A DNA stretch of 64,000 nucleotides, taken from positions 62,001-126,000 of the forward strand of contig NZ_QCZJ01000015.1 of NCBI RefSeq assembly GCF_003075435.1. The letters are read 5' to 3'. Positions 14,905-60,876 of this stretch are shown one piece after another. Below the pieces are notes generated by a model. The model saw only the letters and a program-made list of their open reading frames with translations, was not told the DNA's origin and did no database searches. Numbering within the stretch: position 1 is the stretch's first letter; every line of letters begins with the position of its first letter. This stretch comes from Terrimonas sp. (lineage in GTDB: Bacteria; Bacteroidota; Bacteroidia; Chitinophagales; Chitinophagaceae). Both the position numbers and the translations under genes were made by a program.

Positions 14905-15079
14905 TTTAAGAAAACGCTATTACAGGCTGCCTTCTCTGATATCGGGATATTTGGTTAGGTGCGTTGGTGTATATCCCTTGTTTTGCAGGCGCACCTGCGG
15001 GACCGATTTGAAATACCCCTATCAGGTTCCGATATAATTTTTGTGATATAAAACATCTATCTTCGTGTTTTGCGGCAAA

Positions 15080-15139
15080 GGAAATGGTGTCTTCCTATTT
15101 GAACCGTCCCGCTAAAGGCAGGACTGATGGCGCCTACAG
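15080..15139 (+). promoter_or_regulatory. fluoride riboswitch (crcB motif)
   Basis: The segment starts GGAAATGGTGTCTTCC (P1 stem GGAA/TTCC enclosing ATGGTGTC), continues with AAC after a short linker, then a GTCC...GGAC stem around CGCTAAAGGC, and ends TGATGGCGCCTACAG. The conserved 'ATGGTGT', 'AAC' and 'CTGATGGCGCCTAC' blocks and the possible GGTGTC/GGCGCC pseudoknot are those of the crcB RNA, which binds fluoride with Mg. It lies 43 nt before the CLC-type gene and heads an operon with crcB. A weak stem-loop between 15141 and 15165 could be part of the expression platform. It probably turns genes on when fluoride rises. Confidence 0.93.
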
Positions 15140-15182
15140 ATTATAAGCATTTTTATTGCTGTATATATTATAATTTGTAGGA

Positions 15183-29233: not shown

Positions 29234-30166
29234 TCACCTCTCCTTTGGAGAGGCCGGGAGAGGCTTTTTTGTCACCTCCTCATACACCAGCCTGCTCACT
29301 TCCGCCAATGCCGCCGCGGATTTTTCATCATCTTCTATTCCCCTTGATAATAATACAATCACATATTTTCTTCCATCGGGCAAAAACACAATTCCTGAAT
29401 CATGCCTCACACCTTTGAAAGCGCCTGTTTTGTTGGCAACTTTTACATCTGCCGGAAGTTTACCCCCAATTACCCGTTTAAACCGCTGGTGCAGTAATAT
29501 ATCCAGCATATCGTCGGTAGATCTTTTATCAGCAACAGTTCCTTTTGCTATACTTTCCATTACAAGCACTAAATCATAAGCAGTAGTAATATTATTCAGG
29601 CCCTTTTCAAATGCTTTCTTGTCTTCCACACCACGGAGCACCTGCATATTTTTTGTACCCAGCTTGCGCATGGTAGCGGTTACGTTTTTTGCACCAACCA
29701 GCTCAATAATATTATTGGTGGCTAGATTGCTGCTTACGGTTATCATTCTGAAAACAATATCTCTTATTGGTAGTTTTTTCCCTATATGGAGATAGAGATC
29801 GTGTTCGCTGTCGTCTGTTGAATCAAGAGAGTATGTGCTGCCATCAACAATACTTGAAAAAGTATTTTTCACCAGCATGGAATCTGTTACGGAAAATTTT
29901 CCCTGTGCGGCTTGTTTATATACTTCTATCATTACCGGTGTTTTCATGGTGCTGGCCGAATGAAAGATGTCTTCAGCATTCCAGAAAAAAGTTGCTGACG
30001 TGTTCAGGTTTTTAAAAGCTACTCCAAATGTTGCTTCAGGGAACTGTGAAAATATATTCGATATTTTTTCTCGCAGGGCGCTGGTGTCATTTACTGGTTT
30101 TGCCGGAGATGAATGACATATAAATGCAGTTGTTAGTATTGTAAATAAATATTTCATCGTATTCAT
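29234..30166 (-). CDS. class A beta-lactamase-like serine hydrolase
   Basis: The 310-residue protein has a signal peptide (KYLFTILTTAFICHSSPA). Class A landmarks are present in order: S72-T-M-K75 (nucleophile and general base), S145-S-N147 at the SDN position, E187-K-G-L-N191 (the E166-type Glu), and K246-T-G248. The middle Asp of SDN is Ser. Its start overlaps the stop of the preceding serine-hydrolase gene by one base, so the two are co-translated. The last residues (KPLPASPKER) are encoded in a repeat-like palindrome, suggesting the ORF has run into non-coding DNA. It could be a true beta-lactamase or a D,D-peptidase-like protein. Confidence 0.85.
   Translation of the reverse strand: MNTMKYLFTILTTAFICHSSPAKPVNDTSALREKISNIFSQFPEATFGVAFKNLNTSATFFWNAEDIFHSASTMKTPVMIEVYKQAAQGKFSVTDSMLVKNTFSSIVDGSTYSLDSTDDSEHDLYLHIGKKLPIRDIVFRMITVSSNLATNNIIELVGAKNVTATMRKLGTKNMQVLRGVEDKKAFEKGLNNITTAYDLVLVMESIAKGTVADKRSTDDMLDILLHQRFKRVIGGKLPADVKVANKTGAFKGVRHDSGIVFLPDGRKYVIVLLSRGIEDDEKSAAALAEVSRLVYEEVTKKPLPASPKER
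29237..29253. repeat. small inverted repeat CCTCTCC/GGAGAGG
   Basis: CCTCTCC, TTT, GGAGAGG, followed by GGGAGAGGCTTTTTT. It lies in the last codons of the next minus-strand gene and resembles the palindrome at 21591-21615. It may also act as the terminator of the plus-strand gene ending at 29031, though the distance is large. Confidence 0.5.
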
Positions 30167-31737
30167 TATCTTTTCTTTACAGGAATTAAACGGAGTGCGG
30201 AAAAATTTAAATCAGAATCAGGATCAATAAGTTGCAGCTTTATCTGGTCTATACTTAAATCAGGGTTTAATGCATAACTCAGGTATGCATCAGCTTTAAG
30301 ATCTTTATTGCGGAAACGTGCGATAAAAACATCCCGGTGAAAATGCTCTACATCAGCAATCAGCTGTGGATTGAAATCAAATTGAAAAATCATTTTATCG
30401 CCGTTTTGGGTAATCGTGAAATCACCGCATAACTCATCCCTGAAAGTACCGGTATATTTTTCCAGTGATAATGATGCCCCGGCTGCTGAATCCCGTTTTA
30501 TCATTTCCTTTTGCTGAGTGGTTGCAAGCCTGGCAAGCGCAGAATCAAGCGTTTGTTTATAACCGGCTATCCAGTTAAAGGGTTTGTTGTTCATATAATA
30601 ATCCAGCACATGGTAGATCACCGACCAGTAAGAGCCTGTAGTTTCCTGGTTGGTCAGTACGCAGATGCCAAGGTTCAGTTCAGGCACCATGGTTACCTGC
30701 GACACAAAACCATCAAGCTTACCACCGTGAATGACCAGTTTGTATTTTCCATAGTTCAGCGCACGAAATCCTAACGCATAACCGTAGAAATTTGCCTGTG
30801 ATGGCTTAATACTTTCCGCTGCTTTGTAAACAGGCATCGGGCGGACAATCTTCCAGAGCTCATTTGCAGTAGAAGGTTTGAACAAAACCTGTTTGTCTAT
30901 AGTACGTCCTGAGTCAAGCTGGGTGATCAGCCATTTGGCCATATCATTGGCATTAGAAAGCACGCCACCGGCAGGATTGCCCGCATCTCCCATCATCTGA
31001 TCATATACGCCGGGAATGTCTTTTACTTTCCCGTTCAGCCTGAAATGCGCAGCCGAAATATTAGGCTGGGCTTTGAAAGATGAGATTTTTGACATACTAC
31101 CGGTCATGCCTACCCTGCTAAAAATTTTTGTCCTGATAAACTCTTCCCATTCCAGGCCCGAAACAGCATGAATCACTTCTCCGGCTACGAGATAAAAAAC
31201 ATTGTCGTATGCGTATGTGCTTCTGAAGCCATTAACGAAAGGTATATACCTGATGCGGCGGATAATTTCCTGCCGGGAATAATTGGAAGGAGGGAATAAC
31301 ATGAGGTCACCTGCATAAGCGGGAATACCGCTATGATGCACCAGCAGATCACGAACAGTAAGATTGGCAGTGATATAGGTATCAGCTGTTTTAAACCATG
31401 GCAAATAATTCACTACCGGCTCATCCCATTTCAGCTTTCCTTCTTCAACCAGTATTGCCAGCGCGGTAGCGGTAAAAGCTTTTGAGTTGGAAGCGATAGC
31501 AAATAGTGTATTAGCATCCACCTGTGCCGTTTCTCCTGCCTTTTTAACTCCATAGCCTTTGGCAAGCAACACTTGTCCGTCTTTTACTATGGCAACACTC
31601 ATGCCCGGTACTTCAAATGTTTGCAGCACTTTGGTTATATAGGCATCTAAACCTGGCGGTAATGCATTTCGTTTATCCTGCGCTGTTATGAGTTTTATAG
31701 AAAGCAGCAGCAATAGTATTATTTTGTATTGTTTCAT
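30166..31737 (-). CDS. class C beta-lactamase-like serine hydrolase with C-terminal DUF3471-type domain
   Basis: The 523-residue exported protein has a signal peptide (ILLLLLSIKLITAQ), then the AmpC/PBP4*-type domain: S83-N-S-K86 nucleophile motif, Y177-D-N179 (YxN) and 'HGGKLDG' (the KTG-equivalent HxG) near 335. A smaller C-terminal beta domain (about 430-520, 'LEKYTGTFRDELCGDFTI') resembles DUF3471. Such proteins are peptidases or esterases rather than proven beta-lactamases. It is the first gene of a two-gene unit with the class A-like protein; the gap upstream holds the structured element at 31796. Confidence 0.9.
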   Translation of the reverse strand: MKQYKIILLLLLSIKLITAQDKRNALPPGLDAYITKVLQTFEVPGMSVAIVKDGQVLLAKGYGVKKAGETAQVDANTLFAIASNSKAFTATALAILVEEGKLKWDEPVVNYLPWFKTADTYITANLTVRDLLVHHSGIPAYAGDLMLFPPSNYSRQEIIRRIRYIPFVNGFRSTYAYDNVFYLVAGEVIHAVSGLEWEEFIRTKIFSRVGMTGSMSKISSFKAQPNISAAHFRLNGKVKDIPGVYDQMMGDAGNPAGGVLSNANDMAKWLITQLDSGRTIDKQVLFKPSTANELWKIVRPMPVYKAAESIKPSQANFYGYALGFRALNYGKYKLVIHGGKLDGFVSQVTMVPELNLGICVLTNQETTGSYWSVIYHVLDYYMNNKPFNWIAGYKQTLDSALARLATTQQKEMIKRDSAAGASLSLEKYTGTFRDELCGDFTITQNGDKMIFQFDFNPQLIADVEHFHRDVFIARFRNKDLKADAYLSYALNPDLSIDQIKLQLIDPDSDLNFSALRLIPVKKR

Positions 31738-31795
31738 TTTTTTAAAATAATTATAATAGGATTAAGAAGGTAAGGTTACATGCATTCATACTTTT

Positions 31796-31933
31796 TTGCC
31801 TCCGCAGCCGGCGGGCTGCGTAACCGGAACGCCGCTGCTTTTTGCCTTTTGAAAAAATATGCCTCGCATTTTTTCAATTCCGCCTTCGGTGGAACCAGAC
31901 AAAAAAAGGCGGCTAACCCGGTTACTGGTAACA
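31796..31933. repeat. dispersed covarying inverted-repeat element, copy A
   Basis: Starts TTGCCTC and ends ACTGGTAACA. Hairpin 1 is CGCAGCC (31803-31809), GGCG loop, GGCTGCG. A long stem pairs GTAACCGG (31820-31827) with CCGGTTAC (31918-31925) and GCCGC (31831-31835) with GCGGC (31909-31913); CTTTTTG and CAAAAAG extend it. Two smaller hairpins lie inside (31850-31876 and 31878-31894). It fills the gap between the S9 peptidase stop and the serine hydrolase start. Copy B is at 60621-60773. A 50-residue frame crosses it on the minus strand (31786-31938), probably incidental. Confidence 0.8.
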
Positions 31934-31969: not shown

Positions 31970-34078
31970 TCATTTCTTCCCTCCCACCTTCCGTATCAAA
32001 AATTCCGCAACCGCTTCATCTACTTTCAGCTGGTTGGAAAACTTCATCCAGTGATGGGTTTCATCAGGGATGACCAGTGTTTCAAAATCAGTAAACCCTT
32101 TTTCCTCAAATCTCCTCACCAGGTCTACACTTTGCTTAAACGGAACATTGCCATCATCATCGCCATGCATAATTAATACAGGAGAAGTCCATAAATCAAT
32201 ATACGCCACAGGAGAGGATTGCCAGCTAAGTTTTCGTGACAGCTCAGCATCAGGTGCCTGTTCCAGCTTTGTAACTTCAGGAGCAAATACCATCAGGTTA
32301 TGCTCACCATGAATATCCACTCCGGCAGCAAATAGTTTTGAATCTTTAGCCAGTGCCATAGCGGTAAGGAAACCGCCATACGATCCTCCGTATACACCAA
32401 TACGTTTTGCATCAACAAAAGATTGTGATGTCAGCCATTCTCCTGCCGCTTTAATATCCAGGTATTCTGACGCGCCATTATTCCATACACTACCGGGATT
32501 TTGAAATTCATAGCCATACCCTATACCTAACCGGTAATTTACAGATAACACCACAAACCCTTTGCTCACCAGGTATTGATTAAGCGCATAGGTATTAGCG
32601 TAATAATCGCCATAATGCCAACCCAGCAGCATTTGCCGCTGCGGGCCGCCATGTATAAATACTATCGCCGGTTTTTTACCGAGCTTATTTGCCGGCTCAA
32701 ATAACTGAGCATATACTGTTTTGCCATCACCGGCTTTAAAAATTACCGGCCGGGGCATTACAAACTGAGCTGAAGGAAATTGCTTTGGTATCAGTGATTC
32801 ACCAACGAGTTTGGGGCTTTTCCCATTAAATGACATTACTGCCAGTGCAGTCGGGCGTTGCGCAGTTGCACTGAAAAAAGCAATGGTTGCTCCGTCACCT
32901 GTAATTACGGGAAAGGTTTCAATACCTATGCCCGGCGTTATTATTTCCATGGCAGCTTTATCAACAGGCACACAGGCAATATGCCTGCGTTCATAATCAT
33001 TCTTATCAGGCCCGGTATTGGTGCTGAATATAATCCATTTCTTATCAGGGCTAAGCCGCACATGCTCCACCATAAAACTGCCCGGTGTAAGCAGGGTTGG
33101 TTTTCCGCCTGTGGCAGGAATGGAATACAAATGTGGCCAACCATCTTCATACGAAACATATATGATGCGGTTATCCGCAGCCCAGTGCAGGTTATACCTG
33201 CCATTGGTTGCCGGCACAGAACCGCGTAGTGTTTCAGGCGCTTTCCATATTCGTGTAGCCTTTCCTGTTATAACATCTGTAGTATACAACGACCATGGCT
33301 CATGTTTGGGAGCAGTTAACGAATCAGGCTTGCCACCGGCGGCAGGTCGTCTTACAAAAACAATATGCTTACCATCAGGCGACCACCTCGGTGACTGATC
33401 GCGGGCAAATGCCGGAGCTATCCATTGTATGGGAGAAGCGGAATCTCTGAATATGCCGGTAAAAGAATGATCACCGCGAAAAACGGTGAACAATAATTTT
33501 TTTCCATCAGGCGACCATTGTAATCCTCCTACGTTGCCTTTTGTATAAAATAAATTACGCGGTGCAGCAGAAGCATCGGTGGCGGCTACGCGAACCTGGT
33601 TGTTTTTTATGTACACCACTGTTTTACTATCCGGTGAAACAGCGGCATCATCACCTTCATCCAGCAGCATGGATTCACTTCCTGCAAAGCTTATACTATA
33701 CAATTGAATTTTAGGAGCTGTAGTATAAGCATACGGGTTACGGGGAATAGTTTCATCAAATGCGCCGTGGTCGCCTCCGAGTGTGTAGATAATACGGTTC
33801 CCATCCGGCGTAAATGTGATGCCGGTAATTTCCCGTCCATCATCAACAGTGTAATGTGTAAGTTGCCGCAATGCAAAATCCGGGGCTTCTGCCACATAAA
33901 TATTCCTAAGTCCTTTTTGATTGATCGCTACAGCAATTTTTGAACCGTTCGATGCCGCAGTAAGCTCTGAAGGAAAAGGATAGGAGAGCGCGGACTCCAA
34001 AGAAAATGACTGGGCAAAACTGTTGTTTTGAATAATACAGGAAATAAATACAAATAGGGGTATGATAATACGAAGCAT
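31970..34078 (-). CDS. S9 family (prolyl-oligopeptidase-type) serine peptidase
   Basis: From ATG 34078 (MLRIIIPLFVFISCIIQ) the 702-residue protein has a signal peptide ending near 'SFAQ'. An N-terminal beta-propeller with repeated 'SPDGKK/TPDGNR' motifs follows (about 40-430), then an alpha/beta-hydrolase domain with the nucleophile in 'GVYGGSYGGFLTAM' (Ser near 565), Asp in 'MHGDDDGNVP' (near 642) and His in 'DETHHWM' (near 676). The catalytic set is complete. It is probably a periplasmic or secreted aminopeptidase or oligopeptidase. The in-frame start at 34132 would be encoded by a heptamer repeat and is rejected. Confidence 0.92.
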   Translation of the reverse strand: MLRIIIPLFVFISCIIQNNSFAQSFSLESALSYPFPSELTAASNGSKIAVAINQKGLRNIYVAEAPDFALRQLTHYTVDDGREITGITFTPDGNRIIYTLGGDHGAFDETIPRNPYAYTTAPKIQLYSISFAGSESMLLDEGDDAAVSPDSKTVVYIKNNQVRVAATDASAAPRNLFYTKGNVGGLQWSPDGKKLLFTVFRGDHSFTGIFRDSASPIQWIAPAFARDQSPRWSPDGKHIVFVRRPAAGGKPDSLTAPKHEPWSLYTTDVITGKATRIWKAPETLRGSVPATNGRYNLHWAADNRIIYVSYEDGWPHLYSIPATGGKPTLLTPGSFMVEHVRLSPDKKWIIFSTNTGPDKNDYERRHIACVPVDKAAMEIITPGIGIETFPVITGDGATIAFFSATAQRPTALAVMSFNGKSPKLVGESLIPKQFPSAQFVMPRPVIFKAGDGKTVYAQLFEPANKLGKKPAIVFIHGGPQRQMLLGWHYGDYYANTYALNQYLVSKGFVVLSVNYRLGIGYGYEFQNPGSVWNNGASEYLDIKAAGEWLTSQSFVDAKRIGVYGGSYGGFLTAMALAKDSKLFAAGVDIHGEHNLMVFAPEVTKLEQAPDAELSRKLSWQSSPVAYIDLWTSPVLIMHGDDDGNVPFKQSVDLVRRFEEKGFTDFETLVIPDETHHWMKFSNQLKVDEAVAEFLIRKVGGKK

Positions 34079-34098
34079 AAGAATATTTATTTTTTTTC

Positions 34099-34147
34099 GT
34101 GAGAAGTGAAATGACAAATGTGAGATTCTCATTTCTGTTGTTTCACG
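34099..34147 (+). repeat. heptamer array upstream of the S9 peptidase
   Basis: GTGAGAA, GTGAAAT, GACAAAT, GTGAGAT, TCTCATT, TCTGTTG, TTTCACG follow in 7-nt phase, 21 nt before the S9 start. The first units match the array at 21405; the later ones are their approximate complement, giving an inverted arrangement. Confidence 0.6.
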
Positions 34148-60511: not shown

Positions 60512-60620
60512 AAAATTATAATGATCTTATATTATCTCAAACATGAACTGAGGTAATTAGTGAATTTCACTATCAATATTGACCTTAAGAATACGTAGCT
60601 TCTTTAAGGTTAGGTGTTGA

Positions 60621-60773
60621 TTGCCTCAAGCCGGCGGGCTTCGTATCCGAAACGCCACTGATTTTTGCTTTGAGGAGACCTGTCAGCTTTATATCATTGT
60701 TCATCAATCACTTTAATCAGCGATAGTACAAATCTCACGCAAAAAAAGGTGGCTTTTTCGGATACTGGTAACA
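60621..60773. repeat. dispersed covarying inverted-repeat element, copy B
   Basis: Starts TTGCCTC and ends ACTGGTAACA like copy A. Hairpin 1 is AAGCC (60628-60632), GGCG, GGCTT. The long stem pairs GTATCCGAAA (60643-60652) with TTTCGGATAC (60756-60765) and GCCAC (60654-60658) with GTGGC (60749-60753); TTTTTGC and GCAAAAA extend it. The interior differs from copy A. It lies in the 415-nt gap between the SusD stop and the ASST-like gene; the rest of that gap holds only the terminator above. Confidence 0.8.
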
Positions 60774-60876
60774 GTTCGACAAATCTTTGCATTCCTGGCT
60801 ATCAAAAGTTTTATATTATACCCCTTAAGCATAGAATTAACGATATTGATTCACTATTGCCCCATTGGTCCATTAC

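Follow-up and report, generated by a model that had tools for sequence, protein, structure and literature searches.

ERIC, BOX and similar repeats are long, imperfect palindromes of 100–170 bp that lie in intergenic regions, and we know of no enzyme for them. The attC sites of integrons are folded DNA hairpins with variable stems that are recognised by their structure; they have AAC/GTT boxes at their ends and are arranged in cassette arrays. REP sequences measure 21–65 nt, carry GT[AG]G at the foot and are found flanking a tnpA_REP gene, each REP family going with its own RAYT (PMC6006769). The same source describes for subclass 2.6 of TnpA_REP, from Bacteroidetes, atypical structures that lack GT[AG]G and have copies elsewhere in the genome (PMC6006769). 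For the CGTC-tagged REPs, known from five phyla including Bacteroidetes, the description gives stems of 8–9 bp with loops of 4–5, arranged as inverted dimers with negligible head-to-tail dimers, and no dedicated transposase found (PMC3733652).

The window analysed here (the whole stretch of 64,000 nucleotides) contains two copies, A and B, of one dispersed element of about 120–215 nt (Table 1). It begins with a TTGCC-like and ends with a GGTRA-like sequence (alignment read by eye), and folds into a short hairpin (P2) and a long one (P3–P5) with a variable tip. The first-pass annotation had described two repeats with common outer sequence and fold and different interiors. This was borne out, the outer parts of A and B being alike and their interiors unlike, and both were found where it had placed them, our model stopping 2 bases before its right ends. 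As it had also reported, copy A lies between two minus-strand genes (ORFs 30166–31737 and 31970–34132); since both are on the minus strand, the copy is antisense to both. A further copy (L019:1491–1624) is chimeric, with B-type flanks and P2 and A-type stem and interior, pointing to a putative exchange of modules between subfamilies.

Table 1. Parts of element copies A and B and of the terminal repeats beside copy B, in window positions
Feature	Position	Strand	Remarks
Copy A, element core TTGCC ... GGTAA	31796–31931	+	isolated form; 167.2 bits; terminal repeats looked for, none seen
Copy A, hairpin P2	31804–31819	+	31804–31809 paired with 31814–31819
Copy A, stem P3, 5' arm GTAACCGG	31820–31827	+	
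Copy A, stem P3, 3' arm CCGGTTAC	31918–31925	+	
Copy A, stem P4	5' arm GCCGC 31831–31835; 3' arm GCGGC 31909–31913	+	
Copy A, stem P5	5' arm TTTTTG 31839–31844; 3' arm CAAAAA 31900–31905	+	
Copy A, variable tip domain, two small hairpins	31845–31899	+	from folding
Copy B, element core, longer tip than A	60621–60771	+	113.1 bits
Worn left terminal repeat, TIR-B type, beside copy B	60573–60589	+	6 edits from consensus
Worn right terminal repeat, TIR-B type, beside copy B	60823–60849	-	match 60823–60839; remainder to 60849 by eye

Set beside the known systems, the element works like a REP-type DNA hairpin and yet, on the features tested, falls outside REP membership, which had been one of the initial suggestions. 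Like REPs and BIMEs with their TnpA_REP (RAYT), as portrayed in PMC6006769, it is an intergenic, multi-copy, bulged DNA hairpin whose stem sequence is the family's own; it is a mostly intergenic palindrome (3 of 50 isolated copies lie within an ORF of at least 100 codons) in many copies (26 matches in its own genome). Its complete matches measure about 120–215 nt against the 21–65 nt given for REPs (PMC6006769). The GT[AG]G foot is absent: read by eye, the long hairpin has ACCA at its foot, opposite ..ACTGGT.., in most of 45 aligned rows; on the other strand, P2 has a CCTC/GCTC-like foot and P3 a TTC/TGC-like one. Close pairs of REPs are inverted (head-head or tail-tail), whereas those of the element are head-to-tail, 11 pairs less than 500 bp apart being on the same strand (three of them in one tandem array) and 1 on opposite strands in a list that is not exhaustive. 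A regular Y1/RAYT neighbour is lacking too, as detailed below. The structures of subclass 2.6 are described as weaker and as flanking the gene (PMC6006769), in contrast to the strong fold of the element, which has no such gene regularly near; the two may nonetheless be the same. The CGTC-tagged unit differs from the three stacked stems and second hairpin found here. With ERIC and BOX the element has a similar length and palindromic nature in common, a likeness taken from descriptions and not from sequence comparison; taxa and sequences are different. Unlike attC, it has no AAC/GTT boxes at its ends, carries the extra hairpin P2 and occurs as dispersed copies. We found no description naming this repeat in a literature search outside whose coverage lay most subscription papers and preprints.

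A covariance model and a search of this genome and its relatives, as proposed by the first-pass annotation, brought up further copies, dispersed and with unrelated flanks. The model (R1) was built from 10 own-genome copies and is the only one used, so weak relatives may be missed. It gave 26 matches in the own genome, 3 of them partial, and elsewhere in the genus 30 in G008, 7 in G005, 4 in G004, 3 in G001 and 2 in G002; six other genomes of the genus and 11 sampled outside it gave none (6 positive genomes of 23). In a sample of the family, 34 of 294 genomes and 24 of 101 genera had matches at E 0.01 or better, and in a sample of the phylum 3 of 395 genomes did at E 0.001, all of them Chitinophagaceae and the own genome included; both searches scored the best 8–11 candidates per genome, and copies can be missed. 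An exact-pattern scan of named genomes found 53 stretches under 17 accession prefixes, with titles naming Chitinophagaceae, Chitinophagales, Chitinophaga, Ferruginibacter, Sphingobacteriales, Bacteroidetes, Bacteroidota and Bacteroidales; the two matches with the last title may lie outside the family Chitinophagaceae. Viral contigs had 0 matches to one exact pattern. A short left-hand motif had 25 matches in the own genome, of which 22 exact ones and 1 mismatched one were elements and two (L031, L033) were not. A split, gene-carrying version of the core could be ruled out in this genome, all 22 exact matches being in complete cores. Four copies stand head-to-tail with a spacing of exactly 254 bp in G159 (L160:739–1639), and two copies on own-genome contigs C31 and C36 (L029, L030) have identical flanks, which is either a duplicated segment or assembly redundancy.

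The regions 31788–31933 and 60628–60773 fold with z scores of -4.2 to -5.2 on both strands, a value as low being reached by 0 of 200 dinucleotide shuffles. The four compensatory changes first read between copies A and B are present (A-T to T-A and G-C to A-T in P3, G-C to A-T in P4, C-G to A-T in P2). For the 10 own copies, none of 500 shuffles attained the covariation score or the count of double-change cells; 28 of the 500 came up to the 4 pairs with a double change and 316 to the number of further pair types, so these two measures alone are not decisive for this set. In the genus set (67 matches from six genomes, 66 loci, 65 of them distinct), 0 of 500 shuffles reached any of five covariation measures. 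Both sides change in 17 of 31 pairs, with 140 double-change cells against a shuffle mean of 47.2, never reaching 140, and 7–30 in slid versions. Stems broken as often as kept would have spoken against the claim that structure is selected; instead 92.3% of 1949 cells are paired, and the upkeep of the stems in further copies supports selection on, or maintenance of, the structure.

A second set comprised 45 matches from 39 loci. The structure that RNAalifold itself derived from it has 22 pairs, with double changes in 19, and at five of the eight P3 pairs each of the four Watson-Crick types is present (at one of them A-T 23, C-G 9, T-A 8, G-C 4). P1, paired in 94.1% of cells within the genus, pairs poorly beyond it; one P1 pair is a fixed G·T (38/45) and one P4 pair a fixed T·G (41/45), both omitted by RNAalifold. 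P3 is constant inside some genomes and different between genomes. Its 5' arm is identical in 6 of 6 copies in G250, where tips and flanks differ, and in 15 of 16 in G207, where the copies have long flanks in common; the 11 copies of G076 show several P3 forms, nearly all fully paired. Foreign GC-rich palindromes are found as nested hairpins within stems or replacing them (P2 or a P4 arm) at L052, L053, L067, L276, L277 and L278.

In helices under selection as RNA, G·U is expected to be common among the variable pairs. We have counted those pairs with at least 3 cells of minor Watson-Crick types, in the RNAalifold structure, for the element and for the RNase P RNA, which was found in 28 of 30 element-bearing genomes (25 aligned). 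The 16 variable pairs of the element (33 rows kept, 12 dropped, mostly extra copies from one genome) hold 499 Watson-Crick, 5 G·T, 6 A·C and 15 other cells; all 45 rows give 717, 6, 13 and 24, respectively. The 56 variable pairs of the RNase P RNA hold 1120 Watson-Crick, 158 G·U, 14 A·C and 64 other cells. Covariation in the element is almost purely Watson-Crick, and G·T (5/504, 1.0%) is about 12 times rarer than G·U in the RNase P RNA (158/1278, 12.4%; Fisher p 4e-18, a guide only as cells are not independent). The two genome sets overlap, being mostly the same genomes, and are not identical. The alignments also differ in origin (element fitted to R1, RNase P RNA by MAFFT), a difference that we do not expect to create the gap because R1 accepts G·T. 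This near-absence speaks for pairing that would be kept at the level of DNA, where both strands are alike, by selection on the folded DNA or partly by arm-to-arm correction, and it makes an RNA function unlikely. Rfam returned nothing on the element, either in the window at gathering thresholds or at six loci at E up to 10.

On balance, the repeat is probably an interspersed, non-autonomous DNA element in which it is the folded DNA, single-stranded or cruciform, that is maintained and recognised. P2 and the long P3–P5 hairpin with its conserved unpaired loops would form the structure by which a trans-acting protein recognises the element. This protein, which would copy or move the element into intergenic gaps, may be a single-strand-DNA (HUH-type) transposase or a different recombinase that reads structure. 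We infer that the element moves as single-stranded DNA and is read by a protein, and likewise which kind of enzyme acts on it. Weighing against this explanation are the absence of a mobilising gene, of an exact empty site or target duplication and of a lagging-strand bias in the searches reported below, together with the weakness of P1 outside the genus and the fixed G·T in P1 and in one P4 pair, for which a DNA reading has no need. The same covariation might instead come from template switching between the arms of the palindrome at replication, which would make double changes in one step and leave them with little to say about function. G·T and A·C intermediates are both rare in variable pairs, as such single-step changes predict, and foreign palindromes have taken the place of P2 or a P4 arm in several copies. 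Still, we consider this unlikely, for the asymmetric loops between P3 and P4 should have been corrected too, and yet they are nearly complementary in 0 of 43 rows (of the 45, one match on the reverse strand and one row containing an inserted palindrome were set aside). Across genera the loops keep their sequence (AACG in 24 of 43 rows, one flanking base counted, and TTAT in 23 of 43). Loops that are conserved though unpaired speak for selection on the folded DNA rather than for arm-to-arm correction.

Many copies have larger carriers. In the own genome, 18 are inside a MITE of 204–403 bp with the terminal repeat GGGCTTGCTGTTTAACT, and 10 of the 18, two of them with identical flanks, have identical 6-bp flanking duplications (by eye). 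Other copies, the worn copy B included, are inside a TIR-B element with the terminal repeat CAATGTCGTTTCCTTAAG; a third carrier was found in G008, and a fourth is a long repeat in G207. These observations would suit a core that is ordinary cargo of terminal-inverted-repeat elements, mobilised by common IS transposases. We regard this as quite unlikely, however: the terminal repeats that enclose this core in the genus are of at least three unrelated kinds, some short TIR-B elements lack the core, and isolated copies, copy A among them, show no such repeats. The core-less TIR-B elements measure about 105 bp and have two internal hairpins (L096–L099 in G005). At nine contig ends of G004 (L104–L111, L115) the TIR-B repeat stands about 110–120 bp from the end and is followed by the same sequence, as expected of a multi-copy full-length IS breaking the assembly.

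No terminal repeats were seen for the copies in G076, G091 and G250, nor for own copies A and L018. The isolated copies of the first three genomes agree from a left edge at TTGCC/TTCCC, or immediately before it, to the end of a short tail on the right of some 12–30 nt, beyond which they diverge; terminal repeats and target duplications, present in many carriers, were not seen at the edges of isolated copies. The two genes that flank copy A also flank a gap without the element in G005 and G002 (protein identity 80%; gap inspected by eye). The comparison of orthologous gaps proposed at the outset showed, by eye, the element to be absent from this gap in two congeners, whose spacer was too diverged to align or to fix the edges; no exact empty site or target duplication of an isolated copy was found. 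Together with the further copies, the element-less gap agrees with the initial proposal of a mobile element, dispersed and probably non-autonomous.

The element is biased in its orientation to neighbouring genes. The 50 isolated copies (status assigned by eye from the flanks) comprise 27 antisense between two genes, 4 sense, 8 between convergent and 7 between divergent genes, and 4 with one neighbour missing; antisense against sense gives p 3.4e-5, several copies sharing a genome. With the MITE-borne copies added (87 copies), antisense to sense is 38 to 17. This bias would be consistent with the element entering where transcription has opened the DNA, or with the opposite orientation being selected against; it could also reflect a role in, or harm to, transcripts. 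The lagging-strand bias of IS200/IS605-like single-strand movement was not seen, the element lying on the C-rich strand in 8 of 15 copies by long-range GC skew (skews weak); local GC skew, in mixed gene contexts, was negative at 6 of 15 and uninformative. A replication-strand bias was hinted at by G250 alone (5/6; elsewhere 3/9) and lost over all 15 copies, and replication does not account for the orientation to genes. That the element is a small RNA family, as the first-pass annotation allowed, or an RNA of intergenic regions that acts in cis and is transcribed together with the adjacent genes is very improbable: the fold is conserved and the complementary strand of isolated copies is co-directional with both flanking genes in 27 cases against 4, but G·T is nearly absent from variable pairs, at a level about 12 times below G·U in the RNase P RNA, the element has no Rfam match, and it occurs in many copies per genome with unrelated neighbours.

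A matching transposase or RAYT gene had also been proposed as something to look for. We have examined 45 Y1_Tnp loci (30 of 43 matches, all 8 of the own genome and 7 others), among which one complete and one cut-off element were nearby, both in G207. With an element at 2 of the 45 loci, a Y1 transposase or RAYT gene is rejected as regular neighbour. PF01797 had a match in 11 of the 14 element-bearing genomes searched and none in G091, G141 (85% complete) and G159, all with the element; in the genus, Y1 genes are present both with and without it. Clustering 756 ORFs from 214 loci gave no clear recurring partner gene. The largest cluster covers 14 loci and may have been joined through repeats; its longest ORF overlaps a copy at L077:2772–2916. 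Eight Y1 transposase matches of equal score in G207 (L170, L181, L190 and L198) are likely to be a recently active IS200-type element.

If the folded-DNA reading holds, one could tentatively go further and see here a mobile DNA hairpin of a new class, distinct from REP, MITE and attC and found to date in a single bacterial family. The element would be read by shape, its stems drifting while they stay paired, as a lock-and-key site for a putative enzyme. It would enter DNA opened by transcription, its orientation following local transcription and not replication, and would have been picked up by unrelated MITEs more than once. A large, fast-covarying family of this kind joins a short list of DNA elements seemingly kept for their fold. 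The near-absence of G·T beside an RNA control from the same genomes is a simple test of DNA-level versus RNA-level covariation that could flag repeats wrongly taken for non-coding RNAs. Both the presence of the core in unrelated MITEs and its orientation with respect to transcription offer leads to the enzyme and the mode of insertion.

The window contains a fluoride riboswitch at 15071–15143 (RF01734, 48.7 bits), and a second one lies at L053:1912–1989, about 250 nt from an element copy.
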